From Thermococcus aggregans (GTDB lineage: Archaea; Methanobacteriota_B; Thermococci; Thermococcales; Thermococcaceae), in the NCBI RefSeq assembly GCF_024022995.1, contig NZ_CP099582.1, forward strand, positions 496,001 to 560,000: a stretch of DNA of 64,000 nucleotides, read 5' to 3'. The position numbers were made by a program, and so were the translations under genes. The notes under the pieces are model-generated. The model had not been told where the DNA came from, ran no database searches, and worked only from the letters and a program-made list of their open reading frames with translations. Each line of letters starts with the position of its first letter. Position 1 is the stretch's first letter. Shown in pieces: positions 8,793-46,935 of the stretch.

Positions 8793-9133
8793 TGAACCCG
8801 TACTACTTTGCTTCAATCGCTTTAATCCTTATTGGGCTTTATGCCGTACTAACAAAAAGGAACGTCCTCAAGATACTGGTTGGTCTCAGCATAATGGAGA
8901 CGGGAGTTAACTTACTGCTCATCAGCGTTGGTTATGTGAGCGGCAGAAGTGCGCCCATACTTAGCGAGGGGATAACTCCGGATAGGGCAGTTGACCCAAT
9001 TCCTCAGGCGTTGGTGCTTACAGCTATTGTTATTGGCGTTGCAACAACTGCAATGGCCTTAAGCGTTGTTATAAACCTCTATGAGAGGTACAAAACCCTT
9101 AACGTAGAAGAGATAAGGAGGTTGAGGGGATGA
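8792..9133 (+). CDS. mbxG: Mbx/Mbs subunit G (MrpC/NuoK-like)
   Basis: A 113-residue protein with three membrane helices, of the MrpC/NuoK family. Marks are KRNVLKILVGLSIMETGVNLLLISVG in helices 1-2 and DPIPQALVLTAIVIGVATTAMALSVVINLYERY at the third helix. It links the antiporter-like subunits in the membrane arm. The start overlaps the end of mbxF by one base (TAATG) and its stop overlaps mbxH (GATGA). Confidence 0.88.
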   Translation: MNPYYFASIALILIGLYAVLTKRNVLKILVGLSIMETGVNLLLISVGYVSGRSAPILSEGITPDRAVDPIPQALVLTAIVIGVATTAMALSVVINLYERYKTLNVEEIRRLRG

Positions 9134-35927: not shown

Positions 35928-36434
35928 TCACCAAGGAACGCTTTTCCACTTTAGCTTATATGCGAGAACATTTGCTCCCCAATGGATAAATGGAGTTACA
36001 ACTAAAAGGAACAATACTTGTCCCGTTGTGATGGTTTTTATTGGATACGCTAAAATCAGTGCAGAAATCAAAAAGCCCCACTGATCAAGACCGACTGCTG
36101 GATAGCCTCTCTCCATGCCTATTCTTCTCTTGACAAAACTTCCTATGAGATCTCCAAGAAGAGCCCCAAGGGAGAGTGCAAAGCTTAGCTTTAAGGCAAC
36201 TGAGAACGAGCCGTAAAAATCTGGTTTGATTTGATACTGGATGATCCCTATTAGAATTCCGGTAAATAAGCCCCCGAAAAATCCCCTCCAAGTTTTTCCA
36301 TCCCCAAGAATTCTCCTTCCGTCAATAAACTTCTTTCCAAAGTCCATTGGAGTTTTGCCCTTGAAGATTACTGGAGAGGCGTTTGCAAAATATGCTGGGA
36401 GGATGTACCATAAGGCTTCAGCTAGCTCATTCAT
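35928..36434 (-). CDS. carS: CDP-archaeol synthase
   Basis: Makes CDP-archaeol from CTP and digeranylgeranylglyceryl phosphate in membrane lipid synthesis. An integral membrane protein of 168 residues with about five helices. Family marks are FANASPVIFKG, PMDFGKKFIDGRRILGDGKTWRGFFGGLFTGILIG, LGDLIGSFVKRRIGMERGYPAVGLDQWGFL. No other lipid gene adjoins. Confidence 0.92.
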   Translation of the reverse strand: MNELAEALWYILPAYFANASPVIFKGKTPMDFGKKFIDGRRILGDGKTWRGFFGGLFTGILIGIIQYQIKPDFYGSFSVALKLSFALSLGALLGDLIGSFVKRRIGMERGYPAVGLDQWGFLISALILAYPIKTITTGQVLFLLVVTPFIHWGANVLAYKLKWKSVPW

Positions 36435-36467: not shown

Positions 36468-37004
36468 TTAAGGGTTTTTACTGTTTAGCTTTTTCTCAAG
36501 GCACTCTAAGAGCGCTTGTAGGATCTCTTCATCTTCATGTTTCAAAAAGATGTTTATAATTTTCTCTGCAATAGCGTTTCTTCTGAGAGCAAATTCTATT
36601 CTCTGTCTAATTTTTTTTGCCTCTTCGCTTTCGTCGTTCTCTATCTCCTTTAACGCTCTCAAAAGGTTTTCCCGAGTTTGCCTTATGTCTTCCTCTATTT
36701 TCTTATAATACGCTTCTTTTCTCCATTCTCGAATGTTCTTTATTGCGGTATAGTATGCTTTTTTGTCTCCTGGTTTTTTGATCCTTTTTACCAAGCCGAC
36801 ATTTTCCAGTAGCTTGAGAGCCGTACTTACATGAGAAAGAGAGTATCCCGTCCTCTCGGCAATTTCTCCCAGGCTTAGGGGCTCATCTTCAAAGAAGAGC
36901 AGGCCGTAGATATACCCATAAAGCTCACTTAATCCAAATCTCCTTGCAGTATTTGCGAAGTGCTCCATCATGATCTTTTTGGCATTTTCCACGCTCAATT
37001 TCAT
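36468..37004 (-). CDS. GbsR/MarR-type winged-helix transcriptional regulator
   Basis: A 178-residue regulator. The winged helix lies at residues ~20-85 (LYGYIYGLLFFEDEPLSLGEIAERTGYSLSHVSTALKLLENVGLVKRIKKPGDKKAYY); the rest is helical, as in GbsR relatives, and probably dimerises. Its start overlaps the RAM-domain gene by 4 bp, so the two are one operon behind the palindrome at 37268. It is the best candidate to bind that palindrome and its twin before the RND exporter (41970). Confidence 0.8.
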   Translation of the reverse strand: MKLSVENAKKIMMEHFANTARRFGLSELYGYIYGLLFFEDEPLSLGEIAERTGYSLSHVSTALKLLENVGLVKRIKKPGDKKAYYTAIKNIREWRKEAYYKKIEEDIRQTRENLLRALKEIENDESEEAKKIRQRIEFALRRNAIAEKIINIFLKHEDEEILQALLECLEKKLNSKNP

Positions 37005-37228
37005 CCCTCCTCAGCAATAAGCGTCTCAGTACGTAATATGCCTCCCTTCCTTAAAAGCTCATTTTTAATGTTTGAGAGTTCTTTTAAATCTCTGACTTCG
37101 AGTTTAGCGAGTATATCATAATCTCCATAGAGTCGATGTACTTCGAGAGTCTGAGGAAGACCTTCTAAAAACTCCAGGATCTCGAAATCATATCTTGAGT
37201 TAGTCACCAGGATCATGAAAACTTTCAT
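37001..37228 (-). CDS. Stand-alone Lrp/AsnC ligand-binding (RAM) domain protein
   Basis: A 75-residue protein of the C-terminal Lrp type without a DNA-binding domain: KVFMILVTNSRYDFEILEFLEGLPQTLEVHRLYGDYDILAKLEVRDLKELSNIKNELLRKGG. The start at Met 37228 follows GGGGGCACT; the longer frame runs through the promoter and operator and was rejected. It may sense a small molecule for the regulator encoded directly downstream; this is inference from the operon. Confidence 0.82.
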   Translation of the reverse strand: MKVFMILVTNSRYDFEILEFLEGLPQTLEVHRLYGDYDILAKLEVRDLKELSNIKNELLRKGGILRTETLIAEEG

Positions 37229-37267
37229 AGTGCCCCCTGGGTTTGTCTTGGAATGTCCAACATATAA

Positions 37268-37291
37268 AACTTTCGGAAATTTCCGAAAGTT
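37268..37291 (-). promoter_or_regulatory. Perfect 24-bp palindromic operator of the RAM-GbsR operon
   Basis: The core CTTTCGGAAATTTCCGAAAG (37270-37289) is flanked symmetrically by AA and TT. A TATA-like TTTTATAT lies immediately downstream on the minus strand (37262-37269), so the palindrome covers the BRE position, ~40 bp before the RAM gene start. The same arms occur at 41970-41989. Confidence 0.8.
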
Positions 37292-37370
37292 GTGGAATCC
37301 CAGTGATTCCATCTTTACGTGCCATTTGATAAAACTGATTAAAGATGTTAAAGTAGTAGCCCCCGCAGGC

Positions 37371-38981
37371 TTAAATGATTGGTTTGGATGATTTATTTTC
37401 AAGTTTTTGTGTTCTATTCTGATTTATGGCTTCGTGGAATATTTTCAGATACGTGGATAAATGCTTGGTGTATACTTCTTCGAGGATTTTGATTGTATAC
37501 TCATCGAGTTTCTTTGCTGAGTTTAGAATCTTTCTTTGAACTAAAAAGCTCTCCACGGGGAGCTTTAAGAAATTCTTTATGTAATGCGGGAGCCTACGGA
37601 TGACGTATCTCTTACCTGTGCTCAGGATTGGTTTTGAATACTTTTCGGACTTTCCTCTGATACCGTGAAGCCACTTTTTGAAGTAAAACATGTACGTCTT
37701 CTCCCGGCTCTCAAAGTAGAGCCTCCAGAGTTTTTCTTTTGTCCGCATTACTGGGTGCAGAACGTCGTATAAATCCCAGTCAAAGGTTAGAATTAGTCTA
37801 TCCTTAAGCGCTCTGTAAAAGGAATCACTGCCTGGTAGAGGGGTGTATATGGAGATTTGAACCGCGTCAAGCCCGTGGTCACCAAGCATCTGGACGAACT
37901 TATAAGTTGCTTTTCTATCCTCCCTAGACTCATAGGGTGCCCCGATTATAACCCCGCCGTAAGTGACTATTCCCTGTTCGCTGAGTAGTTGGATGGCTCT
38001 GAAGGTATCGTTTTTTCTCAACCCCTTTCTCATGGCCTTCAAAACCTCTTCGCTACCGGATTCAATGCCCATAAAAGCCACTTTGACTCCAGCTTCTGCA
38101 AGCTTCTCTGCAAGTTCTGGGTGTTTTGCGATTATATCCGCCCTTATTTGAATTATGTAGTTTATGTCGTTAAGTCCTTCTTCTATTATAGAATCGAGAA
38201 GCTTAATTCTCTCTTCATATTTGTAGGGAACAACAAAATTGTCATCAACAAAAAACACCCAGTTGTATCCGAGGCTCTTCACGAATTTTAACTCTTCCAC
38301 AACACGCTCGTTGCTCTTAAACCTCCACGCATGCCCCCACATGGCGGAGGCACTGCAGAACTCACAGTTGTAGGGGCATCCCCTGGAGGTTTCTATTGAC
38401 GCAATCCTCGCGTTTTCTCCCACAATTGTTGCCTTATACGCATTTGGATCAAGTAAATCGTAAGCCGGCATCGGCAGGTTATCAAGATTGAGGATGGGTC
38501 CGCGATAAGAAACGTTAACTTTCTCACCATCTCTGTATGCTATACCCCTAACGTTGCTAACATCCCTCCCTTCTTTCAGCGCCACAACGAGCTCCCTAAA
38601 CGTGCTTTCTCCTTCTCCGACGACAACAACGTCGACTCTCTCTCTCAACACAAGGGGGTAAGTGAACGTTGCGTGGTGCCCACCAAAAACGACAAGGGAT
38701 TCAACTCCTCTCTCCCTCATTTTTCTGACAATCCTCAGAGAGGGATTTACGTATGTGGACGCTATGGTTGTGAAACCTACAACGTCGGGGTTGAAGGCCT
38801 CTATTTCTTTCAGAGTCTCCTCCTCACTGAGATTTTTCGCTTCCGCGTCGATTATCTTTACCTCTGCGATGTCTCTAACGGCTCCAGCTAAGGATGCAAG
38901 GCCCAACGGGGGAGCAATGTACCCATAAGCTGAGGCGTATCCGCTTTCTCCGGGGTTTGTCCTAACAAGTGCAACTCTCAT
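37371..38981 (-). CDS. B12-binding-domain radical SAM protein (COG1032-like)
   Basis: A 536-residue protein: N-terminal cobalamin-binding-like Rossmann domain (~1-150; PPLGLASLAGAVRD, NPDVVGFTTIASTY, GGHHATFTYPL, VGEGE), then a radical SAM barrel with Cys202/206/209 (SRGCPYNCEFCSAS). About 120 C-terminal residues are basic with no recognised domain (ends KLENKSSKPII). The usual DxHxxG cobalamin ligand is not seen. Substrate unknown. Its start overlaps the tautomerase-like gene by 4 bp. Confidence 0.8.
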   Translation of the reverse strand: MRVALVRTNPGESGYASAYGYIAPPLGLASLAGAVRDIAEVKIIDAEAKNLSEEETLKEIEAFNPDVVGFTTIASTYVNPSLRIVRKMRERGVESLVVFGGHHATFTYPLVLRERVDVVVVGEGESTFRELVVALKEGRDVSNVRGIAYRDGEKVNVSYRGPILNLDNLPMPAYDLLDPNAYKATIVGENARIASIETSRGCPYNCEFCSASAMWGHAWRFKSNERVVEELKFVKSLGYNWVFFVDDNFVVPYKYEERIKLLDSIIEEGLNDINYIIQIRADIIAKHPELAEKLAEAGVKVAFMGIESGSEEVLKAMRKGLRKNDTFRAIQLLSEQGIVTYGGVIIGAPYESREDRKATYKFVQMLGDHGLDAVQISIYTPLPGSDSFYRALKDRLILTFDWDLYDVLHPVMRTKEKLWRLYFESREKTYMFYFKKWLHGIRGKSEKYSKPILSTGKRYVIRRLPHYIKNFLKLPVESFLVQRKILNSAKKLDEYTIKILEEVYTKHLSTYLKIFHEAINQNRTQKLENKSSKPII

Positions 38982-39181
38982 TTTTCTCCCCTCATTGTTT
39001 TTCGTTTTCTGTCCAGTAGAAGCTCCCCATTAATACCCACGTTCTCGGGTGGGTTCTCCTTTATAAGAACAGTTATGTGTTCTATCCCGTAAACCTCTGA
39101 TGCTACCTCAGTAAGTCTTTTTACGAGCTTCCTTTTCTTCTCAACACTAATTGGTGGGCCTTCAACAAGTATGGTCGGCAT
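38978..39181 (-). CDS. 4-oxalocrotonate tautomerase-family small protein
   Basis: A 67-residue protein starting Met-Pro, so the catalytic N-terminal proline is available after Met removal (PTILVEGPPISVEKKRKLVKRLTEVASEVYGIEHITVLIKENPPENVGINGELLL). The fold and length match the tautomerase family. It is coupled to the radical SAM gene by a 4-bp overlap; substrate unknown. Confidence 0.82.
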   Translation of the reverse strand: MPTILVEGPPISVEKKRKLVKRLTEVASEVYGIEHITVLIKENPPENVGINGELLLDRKRKTMRGEK

Positions 39182-39471
39182 TTTACCACCTCACTCGAAA
39201 ATGGGTTGAAGTATAATCCACTCCTTGCTTACGCAGGGGGCTTTATGGGGAGTTTGCCCCTTACAGGCCGGTTCACACACTACCTCACTCCTTATCCTCC
39301 GCGATTACTTTACACCAGTCCTTGCGGGCTGTCCAGCTATTTGTCTGTTATATAAGGTAAGGTCATTATATTCTGTATTCTCAGAGGATTTAAACCTTGC
39401 TAATTTATTCCCCTTGTGTATCCCCTTTCGGAAGGGGACTTCTCGCCTGGTGAGTTGAAGGAGGAATGGTA
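39182..39471. other. 290-bp gap without a convincing gene; hairpin near its right end
   Basis: No coding sequence convinces me here; the short open frames are low-quality. CCCCTTTCGGAAGGGG at 39422-39437 forms a 6-bp stem with a short loop. The part 39229-39340 is GC-richer and looks structured, and includes GGGGGC and TGGGGAGTTTGCCCCTT. It might be an RNA gene or the decayed end of an insertion element; I could not identify either. Confidence 0.35.
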
Positions 39472-39882
39472 TCACAGGAGAGCAGAGAGGAGTTTCATTA
39501 GCCCCAGCTTATCTTTAATTTCGACGTTATTCATTCCAAGAATGCCGGGATTTGCTTTAAAGCCCATTATCACAACATCCCTACCCCGATATTTGATGAT
39601 GAGTGTTTTTCTCTCTTCGCTTAGCTCTTCTCCAACCTCTGCTATGAGTCTCATGACGTCCGGGATGCTTTTTACAGTCTTTGTGATGTCACTCTTCATA
39701 CTCTCCTTCAGTGCCTTTGCAAGCTTGGTTATCTCCTCCGGGCTTGATATATCCGCAATTACCTCATCTCTGCTTATTGTAATAAAATTGTCTCCAACCT
39801 TTATCTCAAGTGAACCCTCTGCTATTAAGCTCTGAAGCCTGGAAAGCATTTCTACAAGGGTTTTCGCATTCACCACTCTCAC
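39472..39882 (-). CDS. Conserved-looking hypothetical protein
   Basis: A 136-residue, soluble, alpha/beta protein with no family I recognise. Features are an N-terminal helix (NAKTLVEMLSRLQSLIAEG), a beta-rich stretch (SLEIKVGDNFITISRDEVIADI), a helical middle and a hydrophobic strand pair (RKTLIIKYRGRDVVIMGFKANPGIL). It lies 25 bp after the next small gene and probably shares its transcript. Confidence 0.65.
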   Translation of the reverse strand: MRVVNAKTLVEMLSRLQSLIAEGSLEIKVGDNFITISRDEVIADISSPEEITKLAKALKESMKSDITKTVKSIPDVMRLIAEVGEELSEERKTLIIKYRGRDVVIMGFKANPGILGMNNVEIKDKLGLMKLLSALL

Positions 39883-39907
39883 CCTAAAAAATAAAATAAG
39901 GGAGAAA

Positions 39908-40222
39908 TCATTCCTTCTTCAGTGGAGCAAATTTTATTGTAACCTCTCCATCCAAGGTCAGCTTGTCAAACTTGATGTGAAGCTCTGTTTCACTGCCTTT
40001 GACCGTTTCAATAATTTTCTCCATGTCCACTTTTGGAAGCAGCTTTTCCTTTGCCTCTACAATGGAGGTTATGACCTCCTCTATTTTGGGTTTTGGAATT
40101 TCTGGCACATGCTTCTTTAACTCCTCAAGTGTCTCAACGGCTTTCTCCAGCTTCTCGAGTGTTGCTTTATCTACGGCAATTCTTACTTCTCCTTCTTCTT
40201 TCTCAATCTCCACCTTCGGCAT
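39908..40222 (-). CDS. Small acidic/lysine-rich hypothetical protein
   Basis: A 104-residue protein: short strand, a Lys/Glu helix (DKATLEKLEKAVETLEELKKHVPEIPKPKIEEVI), and a C-terminal beta segment (TELHIKFDKLTLDGEVTIKFAPLKKE). Start Met 40222 was chosen over 40231 from the GGGGTGTTGGC spacing. It directly follows the radical SAM gene (18 bp) and may be co-expressed. Function unknown. Confidence 0.65.
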   Translation of the reverse strand: MPKVEIEKEEGEVRIAVDKATLEKLEKAVETLEELKKHVPEIPKPKIEEVITSIVEAKEKLLPKVDMEKIIETVKGSETELHIKFDKLTLDGEVTIKFAPLKKE

Positions 40223-40240
40223 AGCCAACACCCCCTTTTT

Positions 40241-41851
40241 CTAATACGCTTCAATTAACGATGGAACTGAGTGCCACTTGTGTTCATCAACATCGATTTT
40301 AACCTCCAACGGCTCAAGCCTTTTGTCTGGATTAAATCCGTGCTTGATTCCCCACTTTCTTAGGTGTTCAACGACTAAACGCGCTCCAACCCTTGCTAAT
40401 GGGTAGAATGGAAGCAAGAACGGATTGCCCCGCATAACCATCGGTAGGCCCTTAACCACTTCCCTATAGAGGTGCCTCCAAGCATGGTAGAGATGCAGGA
40501 AGCGGCCTTCGGTCATCATCTCCTCAACGTTGAAGAACTCCTTATCTTTAAGCAGGCCCATAGGGATAAATGCCAATGGTGTTACTGTGAAGTGTGCCCT
40601 GTTGCCAAGCTTCTCTTCGAGCTCTTTTTCCATCGTTATTATAAGCTGAGCAGTCATTATCTCGTCTTCCTCAGTCTCTCCAGGGAGACCCAAGATAGTT
40701 GTGTAAGCTGGGAACCAGTAGTTTTTGTTGAAGACATAAGTGCCATTCAGCACAACCCAAGGCCATTCCTCAGGAGAGAAGGGCTTCATTTTATTCGCCA
40801 TGTACATTCCAATTAAAGCTGGCGAAGCGGTCTCAAGGCCTACCTGGATTCCAATCCAATGTCTCTCGTTCGCTCCCACAATTCTTGATATCTTCTCGAT
40901 CATCCCTGGGTTTGCCAAGGCTCCAGCTACAGCCCCGTGGGTCGGGTTTACGTTACGTGTGTGCCTCCTGGCCATCTCGAACAACTCAACTACTGCTTCG
41001 GCGTTTGGATAGAAGTTCTTTTTGTCCTCGACTTTGTAGAGGAAGATGTCCTCACTGTGGAGCCATGCGTGGTCTATGCCCGCTTTTATATTAAGTCTTA
41101 TCTCTTCTTCAATTTTCTCGAGAGGAATGTACCGGGCTACTCTTAAGTTGGGCTCGCAGAAGCGGCACCCTCTTCCACAGCCACGCATCACTTCTACGAT
41201 GCCTTTATACGAAGGTGCCACTATGGTCGGAATTTCCTCGACTTTTGGCCAGCTTTTAATGTGTATCGTTTCATCGGCATTGCCACTCTCTATGTCTCTA
41301 AAGATTTCCCCAACAACATGTTCAGCTTCTCCGATAACCACGTGGTCAATTTTGAGCTTTTCTCGTTCCTTTCGTTTAAAGTCAATCTGCCAGGATCCCG
41401 GGCCTCCAACGACGAGCTTAAACTTGTAGCCTTTTCTCTCCCTGACCCTGTTGATTCTCTCAACGAGTTCCTTGAACTTGACGCTCGTGTAGTTCGTCCA
41501 TTTTCCTCCGTTTGTAAACATCATACTTACCGGGCCCAGACCCATAGGATCCATCTCGTAAAGTGCTACAATTGTTGTTTTTTCATCTATAAACTGCTCT
41601 ATCTTCCTTGGATGAGCGACTACAACTTCCTCCCTTTTGAATCCCTGAGCGAGCAGCGCGGCTTCAATTTTCCTCAGTCCATAGGGCGCCATAGTTAGGA
41701 CTCCGTTGTTGTCTGGAACCTGGGAATCAAGAATTCTAAAAACCCAGCTTGGCAGCTTATCGACGGGAGCACAACCTAAGAAATCCAATAAGGGGACATC
41801 GTGATACGTGCTTGTCAATGTTTCATCAGTGCTCAGCACTATCCTTGTCAT
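40241..41851 (-). CDS. Radical SAM protein, COG1032-like
   Basis: A 536-residue enzyme. The N-terminal ~200 residues resemble a B12-binding domain (RKIEAALLAQGFKREEVVVAHP, FKLVVGGPGSWQID, VVIGEAEHVVGEIF); the cluster is Cys225/229/232 (MRGCGRGCRFCEPN). The distal part has TILGLPGETEEDE, as in elongator- and MiaB-type barrels. Start Met 41851 follows GGAGGTGATAACA. Substrate unknown; the two small genes downstream may be partners. Confidence 0.78.
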   Translation of the reverse strand: MTRIVLSTDETLTSTYHDVPLLDFLGCAPVDKLPSWVFRILDSQVPDNNGVLTMAPYGLRKIEAALLAQGFKREEVVVAHPRKIEQFIDEKTTIVALYEMDPMGLGPVSMMFTNGGKWTNYTSVKFKELVERINRVRERKGYKFKLVVGGPGSWQIDFKRKEREKLKIDHVVIGEAEHVVGEIFRDIESGNADETIHIKSWPKVEEIPTIVAPSYKGIVEVMRGCGRGCRFCEPNLRVARYIPLEKIEEEIRLNIKAGIDHAWLHSEDIFLYKVEDKKNFYPNAEAVVELFEMARRHTRNVNPTHGAVAGALANPGMIEKISRIVGANERHWIGIQVGLETASPALIGMYMANKMKPFSPEEWPWVVLNGTYVFNKNYWFPAYTTILGLPGETEEDEIMTAQLIITMEKELEEKLGNRAHFTVTPLAFIPMGLLKDKEFFNVEEMMTEGRFLHLYHAWRHLYREVVKGLPMVMRGNPFLLPFYPLARVGARLVVEHLRKWGIKHGFNPDKRLEPLEVKIDVDEHKWHSVPSLIEAY

Positions 41852-41969
41852 TGTTATCACCTCCATATACACCTTCATACATATGTAAAAAAAATTGCAT
41901 ATTTAAGTTTATTGGTTTGCCGGTTTTGAAGAAGTTCTCACAAAGCTTTTAAATGCAGATCATCTAAAT

Positions 41970-41989
41970 CTTTCGGAAAGTTCCGAAAG
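41970..41989 (+). promoter_or_regulatory. Palindromic operator of the RND exporter operon
   Basis: CTTTCGGAAAGTTCCGAAAG has 9-bp arms with centre AG. The arms are identical to those of the palindrome at 37268-37291 (centre AT). A TATA-like CTTTTAAATG lies at 41946-41955, so the operator covers the expected transcription start; GAGGTGA and ATG 42005 follow. This placement suits repression. Confidence 0.8.
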
Positions 41990-42004
41990 TTCAGAGGTGA
42001 GAGG

Positions 42005-44251
42005 ATGCTCAAAAGGCTTGCGAGAATAATAGTAGAATACAGAGGAGCATTTTCCCTGGTAGCCTTGTTCTTGTTAGTTCTCTCTGTTTATGGAATACAG
42101 ATGCTGGAATTTGAAAGCGATCTTACTAAACAGCTTCCTCAAGACTTGCCCGCCGTTAAGGACTACTTAACACTCCAAAACGAATTTCAAAGCGGCGATT
42201 CTGTCCTCATAATAGTTAAAGTGACATCTATTGAGGAGGGGGGAGTTTACGACATCCGAGACCCCGAAGTAATAAGGGCAATATATGAGCTTGAGGAACG
42301 TTTGAGGGAACATGAGTATGTAACGGACACAATGAGCATTGCTGATATTTTTGTTCAAATCCTCGGCAGATTGCCTGAGAACGAAGAGGAAGTTAGGTTC
42401 GTTTTAAATACTCTCCCCCCAGAGGCATTGCAAGGGTTAATGAGCTCCGACTACAGGACAACTCTTGTAATAGCCACTTTAACATCTTCATCTGGTTCTC
42501 AAGCTGTGCAGAGGATTTATGAGGACATTAAGAGAGATATAAGCGAAGTAAGCTTTCCAAAAAACGTGGAGGTTATTCAGACCGGGAGTATTGGAATCGC
42601 GTATAGAATCCTGGCGATGATCAAAAGCGATTTAAATAGAACAATGACAATTGCGTTTATATTAGTGGCTTTCTTGTTAATCTACTTTTACAAATCGGTT
42701 TTTAGGGCAATGCTCCCTCTGATACCTCTGGTATTTGGTGTAACAATGACCCTTGGTTTCATGGGGCTTCTCGGGATCCCGATGGATATGGTAACGACAG
42801 TGGTTGGGGCTATGATAGTTGGTATGGGAATTGATTATGGCGTTCATATAACTAACCGGTATTTTGAAGAAAGAAAGAGAGGGAGACCAATTGAAGAAGC
42901 AGCGGAAGAGGCTGTAGCGGAGACTGGAAAGGCATTACTAGGAGCCGCTCTAACAACTATAGCCGGATTTTCTGCGTTGGCTCTTTCCATTTTACCTGCT
43001 CTTAGGAGGTTGAGCTTTGTCTTAATAATGGGTCTCAGCTTGGCGGCGATAAATGCTGTTGTGATAACCCCTTCCCTTATAATGCTCTATGAGGATATTC
43101 TAAAGAAAATTAAAGGAAAACACGAAATACCTGAGATAAGGGCACACTCCGGTTTCATTGCTAAATCCTTTAACACCCTTGGAAGGCTCATCAAGAGGCA
43201 TCCAAAAACAACACTGTTTGTTGTGTCATTAGTGACCCTTGTGTTTCTTTATGGATTGACTCAGGTAACAACCGAAGTTAGGCTTGAGAAAATGATTCCC
43301 GAAGGCATACCCGAAATTGAGGCAATGAAGGACGTTAGATATGAGTTTGGAGGTCAAGATGAAGTGGACTTAGTTGTGAGAGCGGATGACGTAAGAGATC
43401 CGAATGTGGTTAGAGCTATTTATCGCTTTGAGCAGGAGATACTCGCCGATTCCTATTACAACAACGTCTTTGAGGCCAACAGCATAGCGGATGTGGTTGT
43501 CAGGAAATATGGTTACATCCCCCAAGACAAGGAAAAAATAAACGAAGCCATAAAAGAAGGGGGAGCTCCTGTAAACGATGACTACTCAATGACTCTAATC
43601 CAGTTAAAGGGGAACTTTGGTGGGGTTAGGCCAGATGAGTTTAGAGCTATCATGCGCTACTTTGAAGAGCAGGCAAAGAACGCGGATTTTCCACCTGGAG
43701 TTGAAGTAAAACCCGCCGGAGAGTCCTACCTAAACTATGTCTTAGGTAACCTCATAGACCAGGAGTTAAACAAGATATCAACCTATGGTAGCATTCTTGT
43801 CGTGCTGGTCGTCATAGTGCTCTTTAGACGGCCATTAGTTTCGATTGCAATGATACTACCAATGTTCCTTGGAGCCCTTTGGACCGTTGGCTATATGGGG
43901 CTTGCTGGAATACCCTTTAACCAAACCCTAGCCGGTGTTATCTCAATGATAGTCGGTCTTGGAGTGGACTATGGAATGCACCTCACCCACAGGTTTTTGG
44001 AGGAGCTTGAAGAGGGCAATCCCTATCCCATAATATCAGCCCTTGAAGGCGTTGGTCCTGGGATCTTGGTAGGAGCATTAACAACGGCCGGAGGATTTTT
44101 GGCCTTGCTTAGCGGGGAGCTCTCTGCAATACATGACTTTGGAAAAACCTTGGCAATTGGAATCTTTGCTTCAATGTTTGCGGCCTTTACTGTGACACCG
44201 GCCTTACTTCAACTGTTTTATGGAAAAAAGATAAGGGGTGAAGAGAAATGA
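42005..44251 (+). CDS. RND-superfamily exporter (MMPL/HpnN-like)
   Basis: Membrane exporter of 748 residues in two homologous halves, each with one helix, a ~170-residue external domain and five to six helices. Typical RND stretches repeat: VGAMIVGMGIDYGVHITNRYFEERKRG and ISMIVGLGVDYGMHLTHRFLEELEEG, with GAALTTIAGFSALALS and GALTTAGGFLALLS. Substrate unknown; relatives move lipids or hydrophobic compounds. The stop overlaps the next gene (ATGA), so both act together. Confidence 0.87.
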   Translation: MLKRLARIIVEYRGAFSLVALFLLVLSVYGIQMLEFESDLTKQLPQDLPAVKDYLTLQNEFQSGDSVLIIVKVTSIEEGGVYDIRDPEVIRAIYELEERLREHEYVTDTMSIADIFVQILGRLPENEEEVRFVLNTLPPEALQGLMSSDYRTTLVIATLTSSSGSQAVQRIYEDIKRDISEVSFPKNVEVIQTGSIGIAYRILAMIKSDLNRTMTIAFILVAFLLIYFYKSVFRAMLPLIPLVFGVTMTLGFMGLLGIPMDMVTTVVGAMIVGMGIDYGVHITNRYFEERKRGRPIEEAAEEAVAETGKALLGAALTTIAGFSALALSILPALRRLSFVLIMGLSLAAINAVVITPSLIMLYEDILKKIKGKHEIPEIRAHSGFIAKSFNTLGRLIKRHPKTTLFVVSLVTLVFLYGLTQVTTEVRLEKMIPEGIPEIEAMKDVRYEFGGQDEVDLVVRADDVRDPNVVRAIYRFEQEILADSYYNNVFEANSIADVVVRKYGYIPQDKEKINEAIKEGGAPVNDDYSMTLIQLKGNFGGVRPDEFRAIMRYFEEQAKNADFPPGVEVKPAGESYLNYVLGNLIDQELNKISTYGSILVVLVVIVLFRRPLVSIAMILPMFLGALWTVGYMGLAGIPFNQTLAGVISMIVGLGVDYGMHLTHRFLEELEEGNPYPIISALEGVGPGILVGALTTAGGFLALLSGELSAIHDFGKTLAIGIFASMFAAFTVTPALLQLFYGKKIRGEEK

Positions 44252-46935
44252 GGAAACCCTTTGGATTTATACTGGGACTATTGCTAATCATGAGTAGCGT
44301 TAATCTTGCTGTAGCAGAAGAAGAACTCCTCTTTGAGGGCTACCTTAACAAGGGAGACTCAATACTTGTGGGTCCGCTTGTAGTTGTCCTTCAAGATGTC
44401 CAGAAAGACTATGAAGAGAACGAATACAAAGCCATGATTTTGATCCTTAGGGATAACAAAGTACTGAACATGAACTACACTTCGGTTAAAGTTCCCAATC
44501 CAGAAAAAATACAAAAGCTTCTCACAAACGTCACCTTTCTCTATGCAATGGCAAAGACACTTGGCTATAACACAGCAAATCCCATAGAGCTTGCTCAATT
44601 CTATCTCTGGCTCAACAGCGCATCTCAAAAAGAGATTTTAGATGCAGTGTTCAAAACCGTTGAGGAACATCCAGAGCTGGGAATATCTAAAGAAGACTTG
44701 TTGATGACGATTACTTACCCAAACATTGAACTCGTAGGGGAAAATGAGACCATAGAAGTGGAAGTTGATGGGGAAAAGGTTACTATTACGGCACTTCAGA
44801 TTTACCCAAATGGTGCAAAAATAAGTATAAGTGGCCCCTCCGAGTGGAAGGCTTCTATGATACCGGCATACCTCCGGGCATGGGCCGAAACACCAAAAAA
44901 GGTGAGACCTGGTGATGAGATCACTATTAAAGTCCATATAAAGAATGAAGGGGCTTTAAAGGCAAAGTTTATCACAGTAGTTGTGTCTCCGACACCTGTA
45001 TCTTTTGTACCTTCTAGCGGGGGAGCAGAAGCAATAGCTCAGATTGCATCTCAAAGTGGAGTAGTTCAGAGCGTTCTTCTGCCCGTGGATAGTGCCGTGA
45101 AATACATAGAATATTTGGATGGAAAAGAAGAAAAAGTTGTTGAATTCAGGTTCAAGGTAAATGAAAACATTGATCCGGGGATTTACCCCCTCTATATTTC
45201 GCTTGCATATTATGTCCAGACAGGAGAGAAGTTGCAAATGCTGCAGGGCTTTGATTATTTCTCTGTAAGTGTAATTCGCGAAGGTGAGGCAACTTTTGAA
45301 ATAGAGAATGTTGAAAAACCGGAAGTAGTTCATCCCGGGGAAGACTTTGAGATAACCGTTGATCTTCGGAATGTTGGTTTAGAACCTGCAAAGGAAATAC
45401 TTGTTGATCTCTCACCTTCCTTGGAATTCCAGAAGGGAGCAATACTAATTGACAATGCAACAAAACAGCACTTCACTTACACCATAAATACTAACAGAGT
45501 TATGAGATACACGTTCAGGCTCCACGTAAGTGAAGACGCATCCACAGGAAGCTATCCGCTGAGGTTAAAGGTCTCATACTACAGCGGCGATTCAAAGGAT
45601 CAAAGAGAGCAGACGTTTGACTTCTCAATTCAGGTAGTGAGAAGGAACCAGGCATTTGTTGAAATTGAGAGTGTTGAGATGGATCCAAAGGCAATAGAGC
45701 CTGGGGACGAATTCGTGCTCAGGGTAAAAGTGAAGAACGTTGGGGATGAAACGGCAAAAGCATTTTCCTTTAGGATAGAGCCGAGTGAAGTCAATGCGCC
45801 TGGAGAAGTCACGAAAGTTGACCTCTCTGCTCTCCAGAACCTCCCCGTCCAAGGAAGCCAAAGCCTTAGTGAAAACCTCCAGCTTGTCTTAAACCAGCTA
45901 ATGGAACAGCTTGCTAGAGAAAACATTAATGCTTTTCTGCCTATCGGAGAAGACAACACAAAATACCTATCTAAATTAGGTCCGGGTGAAGAGAGAGTTC
46001 TTGAGTTCCATCTAAAGGCAAGCGAAAGACTTGAGAACGGAGTTTATCCATTAAAAGTTTCGCTGGAATACTTGAGCACACCAAACGATGATAAGCTAAC
46101 AGACGAGAGACTAATCGGTGTGCCAGTTCTTGGAAGGGAGCACATAATCATTTCAAAGGTTTCAACGTCTCCAAGCAGGGTTTTGTCTGGAACGAACAAC
46201 GTAGAGATAAACTTTGAGATAGAGAACATCGGCACTGGAAGTGCTCGCTATGTGATTCTAAAGCCCATGCCAGAAGACCCCTTCGAGCTAAGCGAAACAA
46301 GTGAACAAATAATAAACATAGGGACTCTACGGCAGGGTGATTCTGCAAAGGCAACATTCAAAGTAAACGTCAAAGAGGATGCAAGAGGGGGGACCTACGA
46401 AATTCCGGTAAAAATAGAATACAAAGATGCCTCGGGCAACACTAAGGAGGACATAATTAAGATACCAATAATCGTAAACGAGAAACCAAAAATAACCGTT
46501 GAAAAAGTAAGTTTTGACAAAACGCCCATGCAGGGCGAAGAAGTGCTCGTGCACATAAAGGTCAAAAACATCGGTGGAGAGCAGGCTGAAAACGTGATAA
46601 TAGAAGGTGTCGTAAAAGCTGACCAGCCGTTCACACTCTCAAAAAGATCGGACTACATTGGAACCCTCGATCCAGGCCAGGAAGGAGAAGGCGTCTTGGA
46701 GCTAAGCATTGCAAACGATGCTATTCCCAAAGATTACACCATTCAGGTAAGGATTAGAGCAGTTGGTGATAAGGAAAGCGGAGACGACAACGTATACATC
46801 TTTGAAGAGTCAATTACGATCCCGGTTAAAGAAAATACAAAGACAAAAAGCAGCTTGAGAACTTTTGGCGTCATAGTGGGAATTTTGGCTTTGGTAGTAA
46901 TCTTGTGGACATACCGGAAAGGTAAAAAGAAATGA
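44248..46935 (+). CDS. Large extracellular CARDB/NEW3-repeat protein (COG1361-like)
   Basis: An 895-residue envelope protein with an N-terminal signal peptide (FGFILGLLLIMSSVNLAVAEE) and a C-terminal helix plus basic tail (TFGVIVGILALVVILWTYRKGKKK). Four or so immunoglobulin-like repeats share the pattern VxPGDExxxxVxxKNxGxxxAKxxxV (e.g. KVRPGDEITIKVHIKNEGALKAKF, QGEEVLVHIKVKNIGGEQAEN). It is anchored outside the cell and coupled to the RND exporter, probably forming an envelope extension of it. The N-terminal ~200 residues are of unknown type. Confidence 0.8.
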   Translation: MRKPFGFILGLLLIMSSVNLAVAEEELLFEGYLNKGDSILVGPLVVVLQDVQKDYEENEYKAMILILRDNKVLNMNYTSVKVPNPEKIQKLLTNVTFLYAMAKTLGYNTANPIELAQFYLWLNSASQKEILDAVFKTVEEHPELGISKEDLLMTITYPNIELVGENETIEVEVDGEKVTITALQIYPNGAKISISGPSEWKASMIPAYLRAWAETPKKVRPGDEITIKVHIKNEGALKAKFITVVVSPTPVSFVPSSGGAEAIAQIASQSGVVQSVLLPVDSAVKYIEYLDGKEEKVVEFRFKVNENIDPGIYPLYISLAYYVQTGEKLQMLQGFDYFSVSVIREGEATFEIENVEKPEVVHPGEDFEITVDLRNVGLEPAKEILVDLSPSLEFQKGAILIDNATKQHFTYTINTNRVMRYTFRLHVSEDASTGSYPLRLKVSYYSGDSKDQREQTFDFSIQVVRRNQAFVEIESVEMDPKAIEPGDEFVLRVKVKNVGDETAKAFSFRIEPSEVNAPGEVTKVDLSALQNLPVQGSQSLSENLQLVLNQLMEQLARENINAFLPIGEDNTKYLSKLGPGEERVLEFHLKASERLENGVYPLKVSLEYLSTPNDDKLTDERLIGVPVLGREHIIISKVSTSPSRVLSGTNNVEINFEIENIGTGSARYVILKPMPEDPFELSETSEQIINIGTLRQGDSAKATFKVNVKEDARGGTYEIPVKIEYKDASGNTKEDIIKIPIIVNEKPKITVEKVSFDKTPMQGEEVLVHIKVKNIGGEQAENVIIEGVVKADQPFTLSKRSDYIGTLDPGQEGEGVLELSIANDAIPKDYTIQVRIRAVGDKESGDDNVYIFEESITIPVKENTKTKSSLRTFGVIVGILALVVILWTYRKGKKK

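Follow-up and report, generated by a model that had tools for sequence, protein, structure and literature searches.

In Thermococcus aggregans, the palindrome TTTCGGAAN2TTCCGAAA stands both at the promoter of a RAM-GbsR operon and at that of an RND exporter. We consider it very probable that this palindrome is the operator of the GbsR/MarR-type regulator, and that GbsR represses both itself and the exporter until a ligand opens both promoters. The palindrome is kept in about half of the genomes of the family (49 of 94), where it does not occur without GbsR.

Proposed operators in the window and the genome

Within the window, the 64,000-nucleotide stretch of contig NZ_CP099582.1 analyzed here, TTTCGGAA-N2-TTCCGAAA was located at 37270-37289 and 41970-41989, each time without mismatches and at a promoter. 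A preliminary description of the same DNA had reported the motif, written as CTTTCGGAA-N2-TTCCGAAAG, at both promoters 4.7 kb apart, with the first copy inside a perfect 24-bp palindrome, and our search reproduced these sites exactly (Table 1). A pattern search of the whole genome (1,889,107 bases, ~1.89 Mb) with mismatches allowed, which that description had proposed, returned only these two copies at fewer than 3 mismatches. Two genome matches with 3 mismatches lie within long open frames, and among matches of this quality the reversed control pattern outnumbered the real palindrome. When the window was dinucleotide-shuffled 100 times, no shuffle contained two palindromes at ≤3 mismatches (mean 0.07 matches), in line with the earlier view that two such matches are very unlikely by chance. 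Because the palindrome is also conserved far beyond the window, chance does not account for it.

Operator 1 overlaps a consensus BRE at the regulator side; read on the minus strand it contains the consensus-like CGAAA of the VRAAA type. Operator 2 has perfect 9-bp arms (41970-41978 and 41981-41989). From the TATA spacing, transcription of RAM-GbsR is predicted to start near 37240 and that of the exporter at about 41976, in operator 2 and ~25 bp from the TATA centre. The first site had been placed at the BRE and the second over the expected start, and both placements agree with the TATA positions.

Table 1. Features of the locus, in window coordinates
Feature	Position	Strand	Remarks
CarS, CDP-archaeol synthase	35928..36434	-	33 nt 3' of GbsR; PF01864 E=1.3e-58; NF003114 above cut-off
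GbsR/MarR-type winged-helix regulator, 178 aa	36468..37004	-	proposed repressor; MarR_2 E=3.4e-8
Stand-alone RAM (Lrp/AsnC ligand-binding domain), 75 aa	37001..37228	-	PF01037 E=6.5e-12
TATA box TTTTATAT, RAM-GbsR promoter	37262..37269	-	abuts operator 1; same geometry in relatives
Operator 1, perfect 24-bp palindrome AACTTTCGGAAATTTCCGAAAGTT	37268..37291		RAM-GbsR promoter, contains its BRE; core 37270-37289
Radical-SAM cluster: rSAM_A, tautomerase-like, two small proteins, rSAM_B	37371..41860	-	separates both promoters in window lineage
TATA box TTTTAAAT, RND promoter	41947..41954	+	kept in 54 aligned promoters
Operator 2 TCTTTCGGAAAGTTCCGAAAGT	41969..41990		over predicted RND transcription start
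HAE3/MmpL-type RND exporter, 748 aa	42005..44251	+	TIGR00921 791.6 bits, cut-off 351.9; MMPL E=4.4e-60
NEW3/CARDB-repeat surface-type protein, RND partner	44248..46935	+	4-nt overlap with RND

Genes of the locus

The GbsR protein has a winged-helix MarR-type DNA-binding domain, with Pfam MarR_2 and MarR above cut-off, and its closest solved structure is that of MJ223 (1ku9), likewise an archaeal GbsR-like protein (E=1.7e-17 over 147 residues). Assignment as the choline regulator CudC (NF047500) was rejected, as the match reached 57 bits against an equivalog cut-off of 218 (E=2.1e-15); the protein is related to CudC and is not CudC. In the RAM protein, PF01037 spans residues 15-72 of 75 and the domain search gave no HTH match, i.e., no DNA-binding domain, as expected of a stand-alone RAM; the nearest solved chains are 2e1a/2cvi. 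The exporter matches TIGR00921 across residues 11-737 at more than twice the cut-off and hence belongs to the HAE3 type. Its pairing with NEW3 is retained in distant class members.

The carS gene lies directly 3' of gbsR in most genera, with a gap of mostly 32-60 nt, and is possibly co-transcribed with it. It does not adjoin GbsR in genus g3 or in the RND-less group. Co-regulation of carS is uncertain because the gbsR-carS gap in many Thermococcus holds its own TATA-like CTTTAAAAC.

Conservation across the family

We surveyed 94 genomes of the same family for the motif, GbsR and RND. The exact palindrome was found in 49 of them at 53 sites, one with a 1-base spacer, and without exception at RAM/GbsR or RND-exporter promoters. 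GbsR is present in all 49 genomes, whereas the exact motif is absent from all 34 GbsR-less genomes (Fisher p about 2e-16, which for phylogenetically related genomes overstates independence and stands for strong co-occurrence rather than a strict p-value). RND accompanies the exact motif in 44 of the 49, and 53 of the 54 RND genomes contain GbsR, the exception, G003, being a fragmentary assembly. Two GbsR matches of 32-34% identity, in G033 and G044, were not treated as orthologues.

The conservation is concentrated in the palindrome. Across 25 promoters chosen to be at least 30% different upstream, the 16 arm positions hold 1.95 of 2 bits each vs 0.19 bits at -60 to -31. When spacers of 0-5 bases were tried, all exact sites had 2 bases except one in G077, where the RAM-side operator (L097, 5' of RAM at 8954; G077:C1:1244896-1244912) reads TTTCGGAA-A-TTCCGAAA and has lost one spacer base. 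This site is a natural experiment on spacing.

Among the GbsR/RND loci retrieved, no site with ≤2 mismatches was found away from a RAM, GbsR or RND start. Six off-locus sites with 1 mismatch (G008, G017, G033, G044, G074) stood against about 32 matches that the reversed control gave in these genomes. We rejected them as regulon members, since they are no more frequent than the control and several lie inside long open frames.

The GbsR link was found only in this family: distant RND relatives of the same class have no GbsR neighbour, and several of them keep RND-NEW3. In the distant class members L165, L170, L171 and L172, two neighbouring genes of half length make up RND, with NEW3 next in line and no GbsR nearby. 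MJ1562/MJ1563 of Methanocaldococcus would probably be another GbsR-RND pair.

Divergent promoters on one palindrome

In the usual layout, GbsR (or RAM-GbsR) is divergent from RND-NEW3 with a single common palindrome between them, which throughout overlaps the RND start predicted from the TATA spacing as well as the BRE of the regulator gene. Toward RND, a TATA box (TTTTTAA) precedes the palindrome by about 19-25 bases, placing the expected start in the left arm; the aligned RND start lies 13-29 bases past the palindrome, although several alignments begin a few codons beyond the likely real start. Toward the regulator, the palindrome directly adjoins the TATA box (TTTTATAT or TTTTAAAT) and ends in CGAAA, which serves as the consensus-like BRE. 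A simple TATA pattern, written post hoc with the sequences already inspected, detected both boxes at 44 of the 47 shared sites (the other 3 being near misses), the regulator box alone at 12/12 regulator-only sites and the RND box alone at 7/7 RND-only sites. At the 47 sites of the family that divergent genes share, GbsR and RND have the arrangement of a local MarR-transporter unit, namely divergent or adjacent genes with a common operator.

Split promoters in the window lineage

In the window itself, 4.7 kb lie between the two promoters, and each has one palindrome. Here and in the close relatives G076, G077 and G078, a radical-SAM cluster, which is outside the common divergent layout, lies between the GbsR and RND genes; in G081 and G082, GbsR and RND fall on different contigs, beside radical-SAM genes. 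In this split lineage, each promoter carries a palindrome copy to itself and has lost the TATA box of the other direction. The unused direction decayed; the operator did not. The two sites of the window correspond to the one shared divergent promoter of most relatives.

Between the window and G052, a member of another genus, rSAM_A is 88% identical, the intergenic DNA upstream of RAM 87% and GbsR 70%, vs 75-84% for rSAM_A and about 80-83% for GbsR between the window and sister species. That the rSAM_A segment is closer to G052 than to sister species suggests that the rSAM_A/RAM-upstream segment was probably exchanged between lineages, and it perhaps brought the RAM-side operator along.

A second inverted repeat, TGGAATC-N5-GATTCCA, adjoins operator 1 at 37293-37311. 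Its arms recur, complete or almost complete, in another genus, where rSAM_A sequence precedes them (G021, G052, G036), and it could be an rSAM_A terminator or a second operator. Within the cluster, rSAM_A carries a B12-binding domain, rSAM_A and rSAM_B are unlike each other, and the two small proteins gave no Pfam or NCBIfam match. Parts of the cluster precede RAM-GbsR in other genomes where RND is absent.

GbsR as the candidate binding protein

In 37 loci, only 35-90 nt separate GbsR from the operator, leaving no room for RAM, which stands between operator and GbsR in 18 loci. RAM is frameshifted in the related genomes G078 (L107), G082 (L102) and G083 (L144), whose RAM-side operators have 2 mismatches, and is an unreadable spacer in G002 and G039; in all of these, GbsR and an operator with ≤2 mismatches persist. 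Five genomes, G024 among them, lack RND and yet keep RAM-GbsR with the exact operator, and no transporter was seen directly downstream among the output listed for them. Since these RND-less genomes keep the site with no obvious target but GbsR, autoregulation may serve some purpose in addition to exporter control. G086 has the full GbsR-operator-RND unit.

The operator therefore persists without RAM and without RND but not without GbsR. Moreover, like the operator, the recognition helix (GYSxSHVSxAxK) of GbsR and its wing (KKPGDKKAY) hardly vary. With RAM and RND dispensable and GbsR alone constant, GbsR is by elimination most likely the protein that binds the palindrome.

The preliminary description had also assigned inducer sensing to RAM, which would bind a small molecule and lift GbsR off the operator. 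In Lrp proteins the RAM domain binds amino acids, and where RAM sits between operator and GbsR it overlaps or closely adjoins GbsR in several genera. Against this role, RAM is missing from the 37 loci without room for it and is frameshifted or unreadable in genomes where GbsR and the operator remain, and it is far less conserved (33-62% identity) than GbsR. We regard the sensor role as unlikely. The other part of the earlier proposal, repression by GbsR of itself and the exporter, is well supported by co-occurrence and promoter geometry, from which we infer it. RAM is, on the comparative evidence, an accessory that is often lost, and it may still influence GbsR where it is retained, in 18 loci.

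GbsR could instead act in two ways, repressing the exporter from its start site and activating its own operon beside the BRE/TATA, as TFB-RF1 (PF1088) of Pyrococcus furiosus does. TFB-RF1 is an activator at weak BREs: by binding a palindrome immediately upstream of the BRE, it switches on the two-gene operon that encodes it and a transporter operon (PMC5937170). The regulator-side palindrome studied here likewise lies upstream of the TATA box. This palindrome, however, contains the BRE instead of preceding it, its CGAAA fits VRAAA whereas the TFB-RF1 targets have weak BREs, and the TFB-RF1 motif TCTGAANTTCAGA is different, so that we consider dual action improbable. It is much less probable still that another regulator binds the palindrome while GbsR only travels along, as no DNA-binding protein other than GbsR is predicted within the conserved block, and no other gene co-occurs with every exact site in the 94 genomes. 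Function as RNA, in a leader hairpin or terminator, is the least credible reading: the RND-side stretch folds well (z -3.9), but so would any palindrome, while the regulator-side palindrome is upstream of the TATA box and outside the transcript of that promoter, the predicted RND start falls inside the left arm, and no gene conserved across lineages ends at the palindrome. We rejected an RNA-hairpin role.

Proposed mechanism

Under repression by GbsR, a GbsR dimer would occupy both TTTCGGAA half-sites. On the exporter side it would cover the transcription start and block RNA polymerase, and at the regulator promoter it would cover the BRE and block TFB, resulting in autorepression. At a shared palindrome, one dimer would block both RNA polymerase at RND and TFB at gbsR. 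Binding of a ligand to GbsR would open both promoters, and the RND exporter would be made with its NEW3 partner. The ancestral state would be one palindrome serving both genes in a shared divergent promoter; in the window lineage, the radical-SAM cluster would have come in between, with each promoter keeping a palindrome copy.

The GbsR ligand would resemble the exporter cargo, probably being hydrophobic and perhaps an isoprenoid or lipid. The adjoining CDP-archaeol synthase and the HAE3/MmpL type of the exporter suggest that the inducer may be a lipid or isoprenoid. We offer only tentatively, as a rather doubtful extension, that GbsR senses a membrane-lipid/isoprenoid intermediate and couples the HAE3 exporter to archaeal lipid synthesis in a CrtR-like envelope circuit.

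For one of many uncharacterised Thermococcales regulators, the analysis provides a defined operator, a named target and a named candidate repressor. Face-to-face promoters on one palindrome, at the BRE on one side and the start site on the other, together with their natural splits, make a clean system for archaeal repression and operator evolution. The GbsR-RND link also points to a way of finding the cargo of HAE3 exporters in archaea.

Comparison with known systems

A literature search confined to open-access papers turned up neither this operator nor this circuit. MarR-type repressors beside MmpL/RND exporters are already known from bacteria (PMC5401885, PMC10112066). CrtR of Corynebacterium glutamicum is an autorepressing MarR protein released by GGPP and other prenyl diphosphates, and, similarly to the GbsR unit, its gene is divergent from an operon with an RND/MmpL-type exporter and isoprenoid genes (PMC5401885). 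It differs in being bacterial, in controlling a carotenoid operon and in its TTAA-containing site, whereas the GbsR neighbour, carS, belongs to archaeal lipid synthesis. MAB_2648c of Mycobacterium abscessus, assigned to the MarR family by its authors, is a local repressor adjacent to the MmpL-type RND exporter genes mmpS5/mmpL5, again like the GbsR unit but in a bacterial drug-resistance context (PMC10112066).

The nearest archaeal precedent in layout is TFB-RF1. It, too, controls the operon of two genes to which it belongs together with an operon for a multidrug-type transporter, through a short promoter palindrome conserved in Thermococcales (PMC5937170). TFB-RF1 differs in that it is an activator with an ABC transporter and unlinked targets, and its palindrome lies upstream of a weak BRE. 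The GbsR palindrome does not fit that regulon, as it covers both the RND start and a BRE of good quality.
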